Below, in pieces: positions 3,301 to 26,099 of a stretch of DNA of 34,994 bases. The notes below the pieces were generated by a model. The model had not been told where the DNA came from, made no database searches, and saw nothing but the letters and a program-made list of their open reading frames with translations. Every line of letters starts with the position of its first letter. Position 1 is the first letter of the stretch. This DNA is from an uncultured Verrucomicrobiota bacterium (GTDB lineage Bacteria; Verrucomicrobiota; Kiritimatiellia; RFP12; UBA1067), in assembly GCA_945613785.1 (NCBI GenBank), contig CALZAJ010000003.1, positions 1 through 34,994 of the forward strand, read 5' to 3'. The translations under genes and the position numbers were made by a program.

Positions 3301-5557
3301 GCCCCGTAGCAGGGCGAAGAATATCGCGCATTTCGCCTGCCTCTGACGATACGATACGGCAGCTTTTATCTATGGTCAGTTTCGCCGGAATGCGAACTTT
3401 GCCCATCAACTCGATCGTTTCGCCGCTTTGCACTTCTTCGACGGCTCTTTTGAGCGACTGGAAGCCAAGATTACGCTCGCGAATGCGCACGAGCGCATCG
3501 GCCGGGCCGACAGTCGCCGGATCAAAGGCGCCGCGGATATACAAAGCCGCCGCCCCGCCTTCGAGGTAATCGTAAAGGACGCTGCGGCAATCGACAATCA
3601 CCACATAAGTTCCCGGTTCGGCCTCGGCAATGCGCACGGATTCAATATTGTTCTTAACGTCGGGTTCATCGCCTCCATTGCCCAGCCAAAACGCCTCGCG
3701 GCCATCATCGCGGCGCTCAACCACAAGATCAAGATCGTTAACCAGTGCCTTCTCCGCCGAAGGTTCGCCAGGATGGTCCACCCAGACAAGTTGCACCTCA
3801 AGCGGCGCAGCATTGGTGGTGCGCACCGCCCACGCAAACTCCGCCCGGTCAGCAAATTGGATTCGGTCTATCAACTTGACGGCTCGGTTGTTCGGATAGA
3901 GCGTCTCTTCCAAATTTACCCTTCCCCAGCCCTGCGCAAAATCAGGAACCGTATCGTTCGCCGATGCCCCGCCGGTGATTACAGCTTTCATCAGCGCGGC
4001 AGTGGGACGCTTGTTCTCGTCTTCAGAAAATTCCGGCTGGTTCAACAACCATTCGCGCACCAACGCAACCGAGCCGGCTACCAACGGGCAAGCCATGGAA
4101 GTGCCCGTGTCGTAGGCGTAAAACTCATTGTAGTTGCCATAACTATAATCAACGCCCCATGCTCTCGTGGAAAGAACGCCTGTTCCGGGCGCGGCAATGT
4201 CTGGCTTGATGCGCCCGTCCTTGCAAGGTCCGCGGCTCGAATATTCGGCGGTAACAACCGGATTGCCGTTTTGTAAAAGGCCTTGCGGCGGAACTATGCG
4301 CGAATTCTGCGTAGCCCCCACGGCAAGCACATTCTTAGCTGCGGCAGGGGAGCCGATAGTGCTCGCTGCGCTTCCTTCGTTGCCAGCCGAAATCACCGGA
4401 AGAAAATCTGGATGCTCCCAGACGTATTTATCGAATTCTTTGCATTCTGCCGTATAAGTTCCCGGGGTTGAGGTGCCCCAGCTGGCGGAATGAATGTAGG
4501 CGGAATATGGCTGATCCCAGTACACAACATCGTCTGGATCGGGCGTAGGACGAAGCAGCTCGTTAATATCAGCTGGCGTATACACTCCACGCCCGCCATC
4601 TGAACAAAACCAGACGAACAACTTTGCCCCCCAGGCCGTGCCGCGAATCTCCTTCGCCGACATGCTGCCGTCGCCCACAATAGATCCGGCCGTATGCGTG
4701 CCGTGCCCGATGTTGTCGTTGGTGATACAATTCTTCGACACCTTGACGCCGATTACCTGGTCGAACAAATCAGGATGCCGAATCTGCCTGGCGTCCTCAT
4801 CAAAGGAAATGCCCGAATCGGAAGTTGTAATTATCTGTCCGGCACCGGAAAGCCCATGCAAATTCCATACCGCACGAACGTTCATCGCAACTGGATCCAC
4901 CGCGATATTGTTGGTGAATTCGGGCCGGACAAACGACTCCATCCACCGCACCTCGCCGTGCAACGACAATGCCCCGATAAGTGCAGCTGGAATACGGACT
5001 TTGAAACTGTCTGGGGCTAATAGACAGCCACTGATTTTCTCGCCGCCGTTTCCAAGTACATACAAGAGCATCCGCTCGCGGTCTTCGGGTGAAGTCGTAA
5101 CTACCGTGACATCAACCGTCTTCGCCCCTGCAGCCACAAGTTCCGAAAGCCCGGAATCGATTTTTCGCGAAGGGACGAACTCTTCTATCGGCAAGAAGCG
5201 CCCGTCGCGCGAAAGTCGATCGCACTGTCCGCTATCGGCTTCGACCAGCAGTTTGCGCGCAGACTGCACAGCCACGACCCGCGCGCCTGTGGCTTCAACC
5301 GCCAGACGCATCGGCTTGTCGAACGGCGTCTCGGAAGCGAGCACGTACGGCAGCGTTCCGCGCACGGTCGGCGTCTGCTTCGGCTCCCCGCCCACGGCGG
5401 AAGACACTCTCGGCGTGACCTCTGTAATCGACCGCGTAGCCCCCGCCGAGAGATCAGGAGACGACGCTGCGGACTCCACCTGGCGTCCGTCATTCCAAAT
5501 CCAAAGCCCCAATAGCGCGAGCAGACAAACTACCGCGCAGATCAAACACTTTCTCAT
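314..5557 (-). CDS. Secreted subtilisin-like (S8) serine protease with C-terminal beta-helix-like repeats and MBG-like domain
   Basis: 1747 aa; N-terminal hydrophobic signal (MRKCLICAVVCLLALLGLWIW); catalytic Asp (TTSDSGISFDED), His (GHGTHTAGS) and Ser (GTSMACPLVAGS) motifs; long Gly/Asn-rich repeat region; MBG-like segment (TIRVVAFEASKKEGENDPVFTYGVYGLVGED...). Confidence 0.92.
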   Translation of the reverse strand: MRKCLICAVVCLLALLGLWIWNDGRQVESAASSPDLSAGATRSITEVTPRVSSAVGGEPKQTPTVRGTLPYVLASETPFDKPMRLAVEATGARVVAVQSARKLLVEADSGQCDRLSRDGRFLPIEEFVPSRKIDSGLSELVAAGAKTVDVTVVTTSPEDRERMLLYVLGNGGEKISGCLLAPDSFKVRIPAALIGALSLHGEVRWMESFVRPEFTNNIAVDPVAMNVRAVWNLHGLSGAGQIITTSDSGISFDEDARQIRHPDLFDQVIGVKVSKNCITNDNIGHGTHTAGSIVGDGSMSAKEIRGTAWGAKLFVWFCSDGGRGVYTPADINELLRPTPDPDDVVYWDQPYSAYIHSASWGTSTPGTYTAECKEFDKYVWEHPDFLPVISAGNEGSAASTIGSPAAAKNVLAVGATQNSRIVPPQGLLQNGNPVVTAEYSSRGPCKDGRIKPDIAAPGTGVLSTRAWGVDYSYGNYNEFYAYDTGTSMACPLVAGSVALVREWLLNQPEFSEDENKRPTAALMKAVITGGASANDTVPDFAQGWGRVNLEETLYPNNRAVKLIDRIQFADRAEFAWAVRTTNAAPLEVQLVWVDHPGEPSAEKALVNDLDLVVERRDDGREAFWLGNGGDEPDVKNNIESVRIAEAEPGTYVVIVDCRSVLYDYLEGGAAALYIRGAFDPATVGPADALVRIRERNLGFQSLKRAVEEVQSGETIELMGKVRIPAKLTIDKSCRIVSSEAGEMRDILRPATGRISLEGDSVRVLFDHVRIVSVEGDGTESLCVLGTATAALKDIAGFGSVLLYSPTGLELCGPLTERLEVNCLATSGDGAQFGVASVSVAELNGTANYLANRYNDEHVGSAVDSPNGTILVWDGSGETQPDLAVASYADSDGINHYYSTLRQCFAHAQNTGNIVVYRDCELTNAVNLAGPLTLSSSTDCRQITIGKNGAFTVGADKNLSIANLALAGADNGTRTNHFITVDGGSLVLGDGAIIRNVECNKSSTVFVKNSGRVEMLPGSEITKNICRESKTTLVNNSPGVCLFSPGSALIMTGGRIYDCQSEYYAAGVFVASGAEVQLSGLASVYGNIYNKQESNIYLNGTKAKLVLTGAATGYVGVEFSIGYPAGNKEGGVFGSFTCSSDDAKSSLGVFFYNQAGIGDKSPLVAQISEKGNYLQWAKAPEGPQSVTEAVAEVGVLAPGGTEEKFYLTVAEGFAVATNGATVRLLHDVDFGTDFAVTNNAAIVFDGGGHTLFRRADATIRVPENNALALTNIVLSGEYGGTTAMVKVEGGQLTLENGSVISNVSGQGGRACGGVVVWKGVFTMNPGAAIRNCANDYINEKEGTGCGGGVLLDNSQAYLNGGEIRGCRAYRAGGIFIGNKSRVYVQGDIAILGNSRLSGEASNMVVHDLESRLYLAGDLTGGIGFLEGLGADPDFIGDVDAQYFASAPQERIMEGARRFTNDLTGDYGMVVTNATDALLVWSSAVDPDGLYERGDAVYGALEGGADIAVSPPTVAADEFVYNAAAQIGVKEGIGYALYSGVATNAGDYVARAVLRKGFVWTDGTYNEKSIPWKIAKKTIRVVAFEASKKEGENDPVFTYGVYGLVGEDSASQVLDGVLVRESGEAPGTYDILQGSLKVLGGNYTIEFTPADFTITAAAVDPGDNPSCRPFNFTAIERIDEHTYLLRLSPGVKGCSYTLYAGTTLQSTNSWIAVSNQVLTADGEFSFQDASSTDEQRFWSVKGVDGNATE
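2825..2856. repeat. Perfect 32-bp palindrome
   Basis: gccagtgttttgcgcatgcgcaaaacactggc equals its own reverse complement; no spacer. Confidence 0.97.
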
Positions 5558-11400: not shown

Positions 11401-12607
11401 CGACCGGCGGCAGATTCGTGGGCGTATCGTAGAACAGCACCAAATCGTCCATCTTGCCCGCCGCGCCGCCTGGATTGAAACGGATAGTATAGCTGTTCGC
11501 CGCATAAACCGCTCTGATGATCTTGTCCGCGATGATTTCATCAAAGTCTGCGTCCCACTTCTCGAAGTGGTAGCCCTTGGGTACGGTGGCAATCGGGGAT
11601 GTAGCCGCATAGCCCTCCTTCACCTTGTCAATCACGTTAGTCGATGCGCCTGTCTCGGTTTTGAAGCGGAACTCGACATCATAGACTTTACGCTCGCGCC
11701 ATTGGGCGTAAAGCGTTGTGAAATCGATATCGCTGGCAGTTACGGTATCGCCATTCGAGATAATAGCCCCGCCGGAAGGATAGGGCGACCAGCCAACGAA
11801 ATATTCATCGTTAGGCGGCGTGGGCTCCGGCAATGAATACTTCTCGCCGATTCGTACGACTATGTTTTGGGGACTCACCTTGCCACCTTGCGGAGCAAGC
11901 GCCACCTGAACGGCGCGCTTTTCCCAGATCGCGTAAAGCGTAACCGTGCCGTTCGTCGTCGCACCAAATTTCTCGCCGGCCTTGTCTAGCTCCTGGCCGG
12001 TGGTGAAGTCGGCTTTGACGGCTGCTTTGGAAGTAGACCAGCCGGCGATTTCCCAGCCCTTGCGGATAGACGAATTTTCCCAGGCTTCGATGCGCTCGGC
12101 CATATCGTCGCCTGCAGCCACGACCACGACATCGGTATAGACAACGCCCTTGGGTCCGTAAGCCGCAGTAAAATTGCCGACGTTGGGATTGTAGACGATG
12201 TCGTATTTGAGGGGCGAGAACACCGGCGAGAGATAAAGCGACGAACCCCAAAGCGGAGATTCGTCTTTATCCCACTCAACTTTTATCGTGTAGCCGGAAT
12301 ATGATTTTTTGATTCGCTCGTCCGGAATCGACGACAAGGTGGTTCCAGACCACGTCAAACCGTCCCACAAAATCCATTGATCGAGAGCATAGCCCTTCGG
12401 CGGCACGGCGGCGATGCTGAACGAGAAGCTGGACGAAAGAAGCTGCGTTCCGTAAGGAGAAACGGTGGAGTTCACATTCGCTTCCATTGCCCGGTTCCCG
12501 TCCAAGAAATAATACGGCTGGGTGACGGTTATTTGGGTTGTCGCCGCGTTGGCGATGATCCCCGTAACAGCGAACACAAAAACGAACGAATGTTTTCTCA
12601 GATTCAT
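8459..12607 (-). CDS. Exported InlB B-repeat (Listeria-Bacteroides repeat) containing protein with Pro-rich linker and C-terminal repeat modules
   Basis: 1382 aa; signal peptide [22 protein letters not shown]; several repeats of the type YxVRFxxNGGxGxM...FxGWxT...ELxAVWS; linker [43 protein letters not shown]. Confidence 0.85.
9591..9635. repeat. 15-bp tandem repeat (3 units) encoding the Pro-rich linker
   Basis: + strand tcgaccggcgacgga / tcgaccggcggcggg / ttgactggcggcgga. Confidence 0.8.
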
Positions 12608-12633
12608 CCCCTTACCCCTTCCCTTTTCTGGAT

Positions 12634-14190
12634 TTATAGATTCTTGAGATCAAGCGCAAGCAGAAACTCGGGGTTCGACTTCGTTTTCTTCAACGAGTTA
12701 AGAACCGACTTCATGGCCGATTCAGCTCCAGCGTCGCTCAAGATGCGGCGCATGCCCCAGGTCTTCTCGAGTTCCATCGGATCAAGGAGGAGATCCTCCT
12801 TGCGCGTGCCGGACTTGTCGACGTCGATAGCCGGGAAGATACGCTTGTCCGCGAGACCGCGGTCCAGGACGATTTCCATATTGCCCGTGCCCTTGAACTC
12901 CTCGAAGATCACTTCGTCCATGCGCGAGCCGGTATCGATGAGACCCGTTGCGATGATCGTGAGCGAACCGCCGCCTTCGATGTTGCGGGCCGCGCCGAAG
13001 AAACGCTTCGGACGGTGCATCGCCATCGCGTCCACACCACCCGTGAGAATCTTGCCGGAGTGAGGCTGGACCGTGTTGTACGCACGGGCCATACGGGTGA
13101 TGGAGTCGAGGAGGATGACCACGTCGCGTCCGTTCTCGACCTGACGCTTGGACATCTCAATGACCATCTCGGCGACGTTCACGTGGTGCTGGGGCTCTTC
13201 ATCGAAGGTCGACGAAAGGACCATTGCCTTGGTGTTACGCTGCATGTCCGTCACTTCCTCAGGACGTTCGTCGATGAGGAGGATGATGAGCATCGCCTCC
13301 GGATGGTTCGCCGTAATCGCATTCGCCATCTTCTGGAGCAAGACCGTCTTACCGACGCGCGGCGGCGCGATGATGAGTCCGCGCTGACCGAAGCCGATCG
13401 GCGTGAAGAGGTCGATGACGCGCGTCGAGTATTCCGTCGGCTCCGTCTCGAGAATAATGCGACGGGTCGGGAAGGTCGCCGTCAGGTTTTCGAAATGGAC
13501 AACGCGGGCAGCCACAGAAGGCTCCTTGCCGTTGACGGTGTTCACATTGCCGAGACAGAAGAACCGGTCACGGTCGCGCGGGTCGCGAACAGGTCCCTCG
13601 ATGATATCACCCGTGCGAAGCGCGTGACGACGAATCTGCTGCTGGGTCACGAAGACGTCCTCCGGGCAGGCGAGGAAGTTGTTCTTCGCCGAACGGAGAA
13701 AGCCATGGCCTTCACGAACGATTTCAAGGCAACCGGACGCGAGAACCGCGCCACCCTTGGCGAGGTAAGAACGGATGGCCGCGAAAATGAGCTCGTGCTT
13801 CCGATAGGTTCCGAGCTCCTCGGGGTCCGCCCCCGGCATCATGCGATCGACAATCTGAGGGGCCGGCCAAGTCTGGATATCGGCCAGACGAAATTCAGGG
13901 AGCGACGGATCGCGATTGGCATTGGACGCTTCCTCGGGCTGCGCCGCGCGCGGCTCGGTCGGCAACGGCGCGTTCAAAAGAGGATTCACCGACTCGGCAC
14001 CATTGCCGCCGCGGATCGGCGAATTGTTCTTCTGCTGGGAACGGTGCGGCTGGCGCTTGTGGAACTGCTTCTTCTGATTCTGCTGTCCGCCGCCGCCATT
14101 GCCACCCTGAGACTGAGCCGGCGGATTGGCCGGAGGGGTGGAACGGGCTGGCTTTGCACTCTGTGCGAAAACGTCGAATTCTTCTGCCAT
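12634..14190 (-). CDS. rho: Transcription termination factor Rho with low-complexity N-terminal extension
   Basis: 518 aa; PIGFGQRGLIIAPPRVGKTVLLQKMA, LIDERPEEVTDM, DSITRMARAYNTV, TGGVDAMAMHRPKRFFGAARNIEGGGSLTIIATGLIDTGSRMDEVIFEEFKGTGNMEI are Rho signatures. Confidence 0.97.
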   Translation of the reverse strand: MAEEFDVFAQSAKPARSTPPANPPAQSQGGNGGGGQQNQKKQFHKRQPHRSQQKNNSPIRGGNGAESVNPLLNAPLPTEPRAAQPEEASNANRDPSLPEFRLADIQTWPAPQIVDRMMPGADPEELGTYRKHELIFAAIRSYLAKGGAVLASGCLEIVREGHGFLRSAKNNFLACPEDVFVTQQQIRRHALRTGDIIEGPVRDPRDRDRFFCLGNVNTVNGKEPSVAARVVHFENLTATFPTRRIILETEPTEYSTRVIDLFTPIGFGQRGLIIAPPRVGKTVLLQKMANAITANHPEAMLIILLIDERPEEVTDMQRNTKAMVLSSTFDEEPQHHVNVAEMVIEMSKRQVENGRDVVILLDSITRMARAYNTVQPHSGKILTGGVDAMAMHRPKRFFGAARNIEGGGSLTIIATGLIDTGSRMDEVIFEEFKGTGNMEIVLDRGLADKRIFPAIDVDKSGTRKEDLLLDPMELEKTWGMRRILSDAGAESAMKSVLNSLKKTKSNPEFLLALDLKNL

Positions 14191-23819: not shown

Positions 23820-24857
23820 TTACTTGGTGGTCGACTGAAGAAGCGTCACGCAGATCGTACCGACAATATCCTCCGCGGAGCAGCCGCGGCTAAGGTCGTT
23901 CATCGCCTTCGCGAGGCCCTGGAGATTCGGACCGATCGCCGTCGCGCCGCCGAGACGCTGCGCGATCTTGTAGCCGATGTTACCAGCCTGGAGGTCGGGG
24001 AAGATGAAGACGTTGGCGTTGCCCTGGATCTCGCCGTTCGGGTTCTTGAGCTCGCCGACCGAGGGAACGATCGCGGCATCGAACTGCATCTCGCCATCCA
24101 TCTTGATGCCGAGTTCAGCGAACTTCGGACGCGCGAGCTCGACGGCCTTCTGGACCTTCTCGACGAGGTCGCCCGCGGCGGAGCCCTTGGTGGAGAAGGA
24201 AAGGTACGCCACGCGCGGCTCACAGCCCGTGAGGTCGCGGTAGGTCTGCGCGGTCGCGAGACCGATGTCCACGAGCTGCTCGGCCGTCGGGTTGGGAATG
24301 ACGGCGCAGTCACCGAAGGCGAGGACGCTGTCACCGAACGGGGTCGGCTCCTTGAGATCCATGATGAAGCAGGACGAAGCGGTCTTGACGCCCTTCTGGG
24401 TGCCGAGCGTGTGGAACGCGGCACGGAGCATGTCGCCCGTCGAGGCGATCGAACCGGCGACGAGTCCGTCGACACGGCCGAGCTTGACCATCATGCCGCC
24501 GAAGTAGATGCGCTTCGTGCGGAGGGTCTTCTGCGCGGTCGCGAGGTCGATGATCTTCTGCTTCTCGGCCGGCTTCTTGGATTCCTTGGCGTTCCAGGCC
24601 TCGAGATAGGCGGCTTCGAGTTCGGCGTCGCCCTGCGTGTATTCAATCGTCTGTATTCCCTTGTCCGCAAGCTTCATGTGCGCGAGGCTCTCGGCAGTGG
24701 CAATCTCCTCGGGCGTGCCGAGCACGATCGGGGTGCAGATCTTACGTGCCACGCAGGCGCAGGCCGCGGTGATGACGCGCGGATCCATGCCCTCGGGAAG
24801 CACGACGGTCTTGTTGAGGGCGGAAGCCTTTTCGATAATGTTCTTGATGGCGTTCAT
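23820..24857 (-). CDS. pta: Phosphate acetyltransferase
   Basis: 345 aa; VVLPEGMDPRVITAA, LVAGSIASTGDMLRAAF, FGDCAVIPNPTAEQLVDI, GNANVFIFPDLQAGNIGYKIAQRLGGATAIGPNLQGLAKAMNDLSRGCS. Confidence 0.96.
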   Translation of the reverse strand: MNAIKNIIEKASALNKTVVLPEGMDPRVITAACACVARKICTPIVLGTPEEIATAESLAHMKLADKGIQTIEYTQGDAELEAAYLEAWNAKESKKPAEKQKIIDLATAQKTLRTKRIYFGGMMVKLGRVDGLVAGSIASTGDMLRAAFHTLGTQKGVKTASSCFIMDLKEPTPFGDSVLAFGDCAVIPNPTAEQLVDIGLATAQTYRDLTGCEPRVAYLSFSTKGSAAGDLVEKVQKAVELARPKFAELGIKMDGEMQFDAAIVPSVGELKNPNGEIQGNANVFIFPDLQAGNIGYKIAQRLGGATAIGPNLQGLAKAMNDLSRGCSAEDIVGTICVTLLQSTTK

Positions 24858-24874
24858 TTTAGAAATTGTCTCCT

Positions 24875-24945
24875 CTAGTCTTTCTAGTTGTTCTAGACGT
24901 TCTAGTTGTTCTAGATCTTCTAGAACCGCTAGAACTTCTAGCTAG
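24875..24945. repeat. CTAG array: eight CTAG tetramers at exact 9-nt spacing plus a ninth at +4
   Basis: CTAG starts at 24875, 24884, 24893, 24902, 24911, 24920, 24929, 24938, 24942; fills the ackA-pta intergenic gap. Confidence 0.95.
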
Positions 24946-24946
24946 C

Positions 24947-26080
24947 TTACCCCAGCACCGCGACCGTGTCCTGTGCGATTGCGAGTTCCTCATTCGTCGG
25001 GATGGCGACGACAGGGATCTTGGAACCCTTTGCCGAGAGGACGGCGACGACGCCGTGGGCCTTCTTGTTGGCGGCCTTGTCGAGCTTGATGCCGAGCGCG
25101 CCGAGACGGTTGATGATGCGCTCGCGGACCTCGGTGGAGTTCTCGCCGATACCGCCGGTCATGATGATCGCGTCAGCGCCGCCGATGACGGTGTTGTAAC
25201 CGCCGATGTAGAGCGCCGTGCGATAGGCCAGCATCTCAAGCGCGAGTTCGGCCTGCTTGTCACCCTTCGCCGCCTTGCCGCAGATGTCGCGGCAGTCGGA
25301 GGAACCGGTGAGCGCGAGGAGACCCGACTTCTTGTTGAGGAGGTTGTCGGCCTGCGCGGGCGTGAGCTTCTCGGCTTCCATGATGGAGAGGACCGCCGCC
25401 GCGTCGATATCGCCGCAACGCGTACCCATCACCATGCCCGCAAGCGGGGTCAGTCCCATCGAGGTGTCGACGCACTGGCCGTTCTTGACGGCCGAGAGCG
25501 AGGAACCGTTGCCCATATGGCAGGTCACGAGATTGACCTTGGACACGGGCTTCTTGAGGAACTTCGCGGCCTCCTGCACGATGAACTTGTGCGAAGTGCC
25601 GTGGAAGCCGTACTTGCGGATGCCCATCTTCTTATAGTACTTGGGATCGATCGCGTAAAGCGCGGCGCAGTCAGGCATCGTCTGGTGGAAGGCGGTGTCG
25701 AAGACGGCAACGTTCGGAACGCCCTTGAAGATCTTCTCGCAGGCCTTGATGCCGCCGAGATTCGGGGGCATGTGCAGGGGGCCGAACTTGACGAGCTTCT
25801 CGAGCTTCTTCATCACGGCAGGCGAGACCTTCACGGAGTCCTTGAAGACCTCCGCGCCATGAAGGACACGGTGGCCGATCGCGTCAACGTCCTTCGCGGC
25901 ATCGCCGAGATCGGCGACGACCTGATCCAGCGCAGCCGTGTGGTCCTTGGGACCGCCGCAGCCGATGCGCTCGACGAGGCCCTTCGCGATGCGCTCGCCC
26001 TTCTGCATGTCGAAGAGCTGGTACTTGAGCGAGCTCGAGCCCGAGTTGATGACGAGAACTTTCCTGATTGCCTTCTTCAT
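24947..26080 (-). CDS. ackA: Acetate kinase
   Basis: VLVINSGSSSLKYQLFDM, GHRVLHGAEVF, FDTAFHQTMPD, YGFHGTSHKFI, THMGNGSSLSAVKNGQCVDTSMGLTPLAG, GGIGENSTEVRE. Start set to ATG 26080; the track starts at GTG 26086. Confidence 0.96.
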   Translation of the reverse strand: MKKAIRKVLVINSGSSSLKYQLFDMQKGERIAKGLVERIGCGGPKDHTAALDQVVADLGDAAKDVDAIGHRVLHGAEVFKDSVKVSPAVMKKLEKLVKFGPLHMPPNLGGIKACEKIFKGVPNVAVFDTAFHQTMPDCAALYAIDPKYYKKMGIRKYGFHGTSHKFIVQEAAKFLKKPVSKVNLVTCHMGNGSSLSAVKNGQCVDTSMGLTPLAGMVMGTRCGDIDAAAVLSIMEAEKLTPAQADNLLNKKSGLLALTGSSDCRDICGKAAKGDKQAELALEMLAYRTALYIGGYNTVIGGADAIIMTGGIGENSTEVRERIINRLGALGIKLDKAANKKAHGVVAVLSAKGSKIPVVAIPTNEELAIAQDTVAVLG

Positions 26081-26099
26081 TTTCACTTTTCTTCCTGAG

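Follow-up and report, generated by a model that had tools for sequence, protein, structure and literature searches.

The stretch under study (hereafter, the window; 34,994 nt, about 35 kb) carries the genes for acetate kinase and phosphate acetyltransferase. The gap between them, from the ackA stop codon to the pta ATG, comprises 89 nt and is filled by an array of (CTAGN5)n units. The following features were assigned to the locus:

24947..26086, minus strand: ackA, acetate kinase (TIGR00016)
24875..24945, minus strand: (CTAGN5)n array of the ackA-pta gap, nine CTAGs, eight of them in exact 9-nt register (from the letters, counts and shuffles)
24870..24878, minus strand: last array unit, CTAGAGGAG, with AGGAG inside as a possible pta Shine-Dalgarno (from reading of the sequence)
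23820..24857, minus strand: pta, phosphate acetyltransferase (TIGR00651)

The position listing bore out the arrangement described in the original prediction, with CTAGs starting at 24875, 24884, 24893, 24902, 24911, 24920, 24929 and 24938, i.e., spaced by exactly 9 nt, and a ninth at +4 (24942). CTAG was also correctly said to be scarce elsewhere, as only three further copies (11986, 14203, 16351) are found in the 35-kb window. The word is avoided in the window (12 observed versus 50 expected from dinucleotide shuffles), and 9 of the 12 copies lie within the array. The longest run of 9-spaced CTAGs is eight in the real gap versus two at most in 200,000 shuffles of its 89 nt. The final unit reads CTAG-AGGAG, as had been noted, and its AGGAG, located 12 nt upstream of the pta ATG, may be the pta Shine-Dalgarno. 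The 8-bp pairing proposed for the units was confirmed as far as the palindrome is concerned, but no unit order optimised for hairpin folding was seen in 153 arrays (mean z −0.10). A comparison with Rfam returned only an implausible microRNA model, far under its threshold. The pta reading frame is open through the array and translates as LEVLAVLEDLEQLERLEQLERLEE, with an in-frame TAG before the array and no start codon. The peptide that positions 24875–24945 encode in this frame consists of leucine-rich, coiled-coil-like LEx triplets.

In the genome assembly from which the window comes (1.76 Mb, 71.5% complete), all of the 16 CTAGN5CTAG sites fall within three arrays, of which the first occupies the ackA-pta gap, the second the V-ATPase A-B gap, and the third an in-frame position inside carB, in the hinge linker. 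A gene for a RAYT-like Y1 transposase (L014, 490–1290) was observed near the V-ATPase operon, and its ends are free of CTAG arrays. Four-unit CTAG arrays were detected in 35 of 96 relatives, with a reversed-pattern control near zero. A scan of contigs from 85,000 species yielded listed matches mostly from Bacteroidales, Victivallales/Lentisphaeria and Kiritimatiellae, many of them originating from herbivore guts. The matches in Thiotrichales, Planctomycete Pla163, Achromobacter, Roizmanbacteria, Teredinibacter, Myxococcota and a Lake Baikal gammaproteobacterium consist mostly of ordinary, near-perfect repeats and were disregarded. Cultured Prevotella carry (CTAGN5)n arrays as well; in P. conceptionensis, the distance to the next CTAG is 9 nt in 101 cases, and any other distance below 40 occurs at most 13 times. 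In unselected samples of 300–400 kb, CTAG and GGAC, along with words that overlap with either, rank among the most frequent 9-nt cores. The ackA-pta array is therefore not a one-off, being one of many dispersed arrays, and the idea of a proliferating mini-repeat family is favoured by the presence of the same array type elsewhere in the genome, in relatives and in other phyla. No direct report of 9-nt CTAG repeats was found in a limited open-access literature collection.

The ackA-pta gaps of 29 congeners are short and unrelated in sequence to that of the window. Some of them contain tandem words of their own (8-nt ACATTCAA, 7-nt GATAAGY, 7-nt GCGAGAC), many contain none, and no CTAG arrays were found at the orthologous gaps compared, save for an 8-nt CTAG-like run in one genome (G026). 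By this comparison, the ackA-pta CTAG array is private to the window's species. The original prediction had linked a one-off, low-complexity origin to the lack of such arrays both in orthologous gaps and in the rest of the genome; CTAG arrays are indeed missing from the former, yet they are found in the latter. At the carB hinge linker, in-frame CTAG arrays are present in four species, and GGGACN4, CTTTGCG and other words are found in frame in others. This hinge of the carbamoyl-phosphate synthetase large subunit was observed to be a hotspot of in-frame arrays of 7–9-nt words that differ by congener (L015/L271–L300). Both the ackA-pta gap and the carB hinge are tolerant sites filled by whichever words each genome currently has, and this speaks against a function dedicated to acetate metabolism. 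Since the gap between ackA and pta varies freely among species, a specific role of the array in pta regulation is unlikely, and the suggested tuning of pta versus ackA finds no support in an array private to one species.

Arrays are situated in gaps and protein linkers, and their anatomy was examined in 155 arrays with at least five CTAGs. The CTAG core is kept, with only 23 of 868 interior units lacking it, and the N5 spacer is variable. Adjacent spacers share an identity of 0.546 versus 0.553 after shuffling within the array, and spacers of different arrays 32%. Raised similarity was found only between units two positions apart (lag-2 identity, z 8.0), and neighbouring units show no reverse-complement relation. 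The difference between orthologous arrays may amount to exactly 18 bp or to units gained or lost, or there may be none. Based on simple ORF calling, 67 of 195 arrays lie inside ORFs, 66 in codirectional, 25 in convergent and 10 in divergent gaps. Many near-perfect intergenic arrays of 7–8-nt words (TTTCAACC, AATCGAAA, ATTTACG, GGAAGAG) were also observed in samples of two genomes, G069 and G038 (L231–L270).

Nearly all Prevotella species have a gcvPB segment of the same length, 38 residues. In four species, five leucines of this segment, three codons apart, are all encoded by CTA followed by G, which gives five CTAGs, whereas in other species the same leucines are encoded by CTG, CTC, CTT or TTG. 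Among the remaining leucine codons of the three array-bearing gcvPB genes counted, CTA accounts for 5 of 134. The gcvPB array thus exists without insertion, purely through rare CTA codons. Either selection acts on CTAG as nucleic acid, or a sequence-directed process turns cores into CTAG; the case also suggests that arrays can be made in place. About 30 Prevotella species carry an extra insert of 40–100 nt in gcvPB after residue 301 or thereabouts.

Clustering of the proteins encoded near 229 arrays revealed that the top cluster belongs to TIGR04258 (ten loci, in both phyla; matches of 56 and 70.9 bits versus a curated cut-off of 40). Matches above the cut-off are present in 55 of 96 relatives and in none of 14 control genomes. 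The protein combines a four-helix bundle (TIGR02436; PF05635 slightly below cut-off) with a suffix domain, and its C-terminal part is a coiled coil. Its AlphaFold2 model (pLDDT 80) best matches the S23-family bundles 2gsc and 2rld in the PDB (E-value about 0.02; TM-score about 0.8, normalised by target length). Apart from TIGR04258, no functional theme was seen among array neighbours, nor was there a recurring ribbon-helix-helix (RHH) candidate; PADLOC gave no match, and PHROGs gave weak matches only. No mention of the TIGR04258 family was found in the limited open-access collection.

For the analysis of flanks, TIGR04258 genes were chosen across the order by family alone, blind to arrays (n = 30, versus 574 control ORFs). 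Runs of at least four 9-nt units occur in the flanks of 16 of the 30 genes and of 34 of the 574 control ORFs (p = 2.6 × 10−11), and runs of at least three units in 28 of 30 versus 19% of controls. Periods of 7, 8, 10 and 11 nt are not enriched in the TIGR04258 flanks. The words found there include CTAG, GGGAC/GTCCC, GATCCGTCC and AAGAC, among others; in some cases they are inverted from one flank to the other or inside a flank. At one locus (L088), an 8-nt-period CTAG array was observed upstream of the TIGR04258 gene (4577–5239), with a 9-nt array on the other side. No TIGR04258 gene of the CTAG-associated clade was found in the window's genome (1.76 Mb, 71.5% complete); its single TIGR04258 gene is associated with AAGAC-type arrays, has 46% identity and falls outside the CTAG clade. 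This gene (L222, about 12311–13150, G000:C13) has 9-nt arrays of the ACTAAGAC type on both sides, with inverted halves.

Homologues of the CTAG-associated protein were then taken by protein similarity alone. Within the order, the nine closest are all flanked by CTAG at a 9-nt period, and TIGR04258 genes of other clades are flanked by GGAC or other words, with at most one CTAGN5CTAG pair; flanking CTAG arrays are absent at five CTAG-clade members of the order (G011, G060, G042, G026, G035). Similarly, the top 15 homologues from Prevotella are all flanked by CTAG at 9 nt, and five somewhat more distant ones, forming a subgroup nested within the CTAG clade, by CTAT/ATAG at the same period. This subgroup (L454, L455, L458, L461, L464) represents a natural change of word. 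In a quick tree of 80 proteins, a branch with 99% support separates all 34 CTAG genes and the five CTAT genes from all 12 GGAC genes; all word labels together require 25 changes on this tree versus 41 in shuffles. The core word thus follows the protein clade, with CTAG (or CTAT) on one side and mostly GGAC on the other.

Co-occurrence followed the same pattern. CTAG arrays are present in 15 of the 17 genomes of the order with the CTAG clade versus 20 of the 79 without it (p = 2 × 10−6, uncorrected for shared ancestry), and they are not predicted by the presence of only another TIGR04258 clade (p = 0.42). The corresponding figures for Prevotella are 27/30 and 26/70 (p = 7 × 10−7, likewise uncorrected for shared ancestry), obtained with a bit-score threshold set after the range had been seen; other thresholds gave p values from 0.009 to 2 × 10−5. 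CTAG arrays also occur in 20 relatives and 26 Prevotella without a close CTAG-clade homologue, which may be due to incomplete metagenome-assembled genomes or to gene loss.

In view of these data, the ackA-pta array is probably a dispersed member of a two-part system made up of a TIGR04258 protein and its cognate 9-nt arrays. The parts of such a system would be the TIGR04258 four-helix-bundle protein and 9-nt units, each built from a short core (CTAG; CTAT or GGAC in other clades) and a variable spacer. An oligomer of the protein would bind the array at about one core per 9 bp, on DNA or possibly RNA. This recognition would drive the formation, spread and upkeep of arrays wherever they are tolerated, i.e., in intergenic gaps, protein linkers and, occasionally, native coding sequence through silent change; the array studied here would have landed in a gap that is free to vary between species. 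The protein-binding array suggested originally is thus favoured insofar as arrays track the protein clade, the binding itself being what we infer. DNA is the likelier target, since arrays are found in every orientation, both in coding and non-coding sequence. Against the two-part system stand the lack of a CTAG-clade gene in the window's incomplete assembly, the array-bearing relatives and Prevotella with no close homologue, the five clade members whose flanks are free of CTAG arrays and, to our knowledge, the absence of a catalytic domain from the TIGR04258 family.

More tentatively, and with considerable doubt, it may be proposed that each TIGR04258 protein itself writes and maintains the 9-nt iteron arrays cognate to it, its binding to degenerate sequence of 9-nt period biasing repair or copying. 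Cores would then be turned into the word of the protein (in gcvPB, from CTNG to CTAG), and new sites would be seeded by arrays. If true, such a repeat system would propagate itself with no known transposase or reverse transcriptase, and a shift in protein specificity would bring a shift of word. The two-part system would tie an orphan protein family to dispersed repeats of at least three phyla that extend into the coding part of genes for central enzymes (carB, gcvPB), and the natural specificity switch from CTAG to CTAT to GGAC, together with the partner protein, would offer a handle on how short bacterial repeats arise and persist.

Ordinary replication slippage, in which short tandem repeats grow by slipped-strand mispairing and are tolerated in gaps and linkers, would agree with the abundance in the same genomes of further word arrays with units of 7, 8 and 9 nt, with the raised lag-2 identity, and with the differences of exactly 18 bp and the gains or losses of units among orthologous arrays. 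It is nevertheless unlikely as the main cause, because it leaves the match of core word to protein clade unexplained and because the gcvPB arrays arose without any length change. The notion of a slippage-prone spacer is likewise unsupported, since adjacent units resemble each other no more closely than after shuffling, around a nearly invariant CTAG, though 18-nt steps do occur.

The 67 arrays inside ORFs and the 25 between convergent genes speak against a regulatory operator, i.e., control of neighbouring genes, including ackA-pta, by a CTAG-binding repressor such as a ribbon-helix-helix protein on iterated boxes like those of MetJ. The array at ackA-pta is, moreover, unconserved in congeners, and array neighbours other than TIGR04258 share no functional theme. 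Consequently, this explanation is considered quite improbable despite the palindromic core, the regular period, the location immediately upstream of the pta start and the 66 of 195 arrays in codirectional gaps. Movement of REP-like elements by a RAYT (HUH Y1) transposase could be suspected from the RAYT-like gene 1.6 kb from the V-ATPase array and from a weak association of RAYT presence with arrays (30/35 versus 32/61, p = 0.001). Within the genus, however, this association drops to p = 0.08, five array-bearing genomes have no RAYT, and the flanks of RAYT loci are without CTAG arrays, which makes such an origin very improbable.

The two-part system proposed here can be compared with several known ones. 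In RAYT/REP (REPIN) systems, the gene is flanked by short, often inverted, genome-dispersed repeats whose word co-varies with the protein clade, and its presence predicts repeat abundance (PMC2817692). Similarly, the TIGR04258 gene is flanked by its repeats, the repeats are dispersed, their word co-varies with the protein clade, and the presence of a CTAG-clade gene predicts its arrays. However, the partner matches TIGR04258/TIGR02436 and PF05635 rather than the HUH Y1 transposase PF01797, and a REP is a palindrome of 20–40 nt with a GTAG-type tag, whereas the present repeat is a 9-nt iterated CTAGN5 with a 4–5-nt core and a variable spacer, also found in frame inside genes.

Cyanobacterial STRR heptamers are short tandem 7-nt units like the TAACTGA repeats. 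The latter, direct heptamer repeats for which a mobile binding protein has been suggested, occur in Beggiatoaceae, Cyanobacteria and Bacteroidetes, and share with the present arrays short tandem units, a mostly intergenic and partly intragenic location, a patchy distribution over phyla and the lack of a functional theme (PMC4679880). The TAACTGA unit differs in being 7 nt long and nearly perfect, with no partner protein identified (PMC4679880). The present arrays, by comparison with both heptamer types, have a period of 9, a core with a degenerate spacer (mean N5 identity 0.55) and a partner family. As the partner is not a HUH transposase, the repeat is not a REP, and TAACTGA has no partner, the array system can be filed under neither. 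The joint occurrence and joint change of the arrays and a little-studied protein family of gut bacteria point to a so far undescribed protein-plus-repeat system.

According to the model, the partner would share its four-helix-bundle fold with the S23/23S rRNA intervening-sequence proteins (PF05635, TIGR02436). An S23-type bundle is also the fold of Avd, the accessory protein of diversity-generating retroelements (DGRs). Compared with S23 proteins and Avd, the partner has an added TIGR04258 suffix and a C-terminal coiled coil, and it is located outside rRNA, together with 9-nt arrays.
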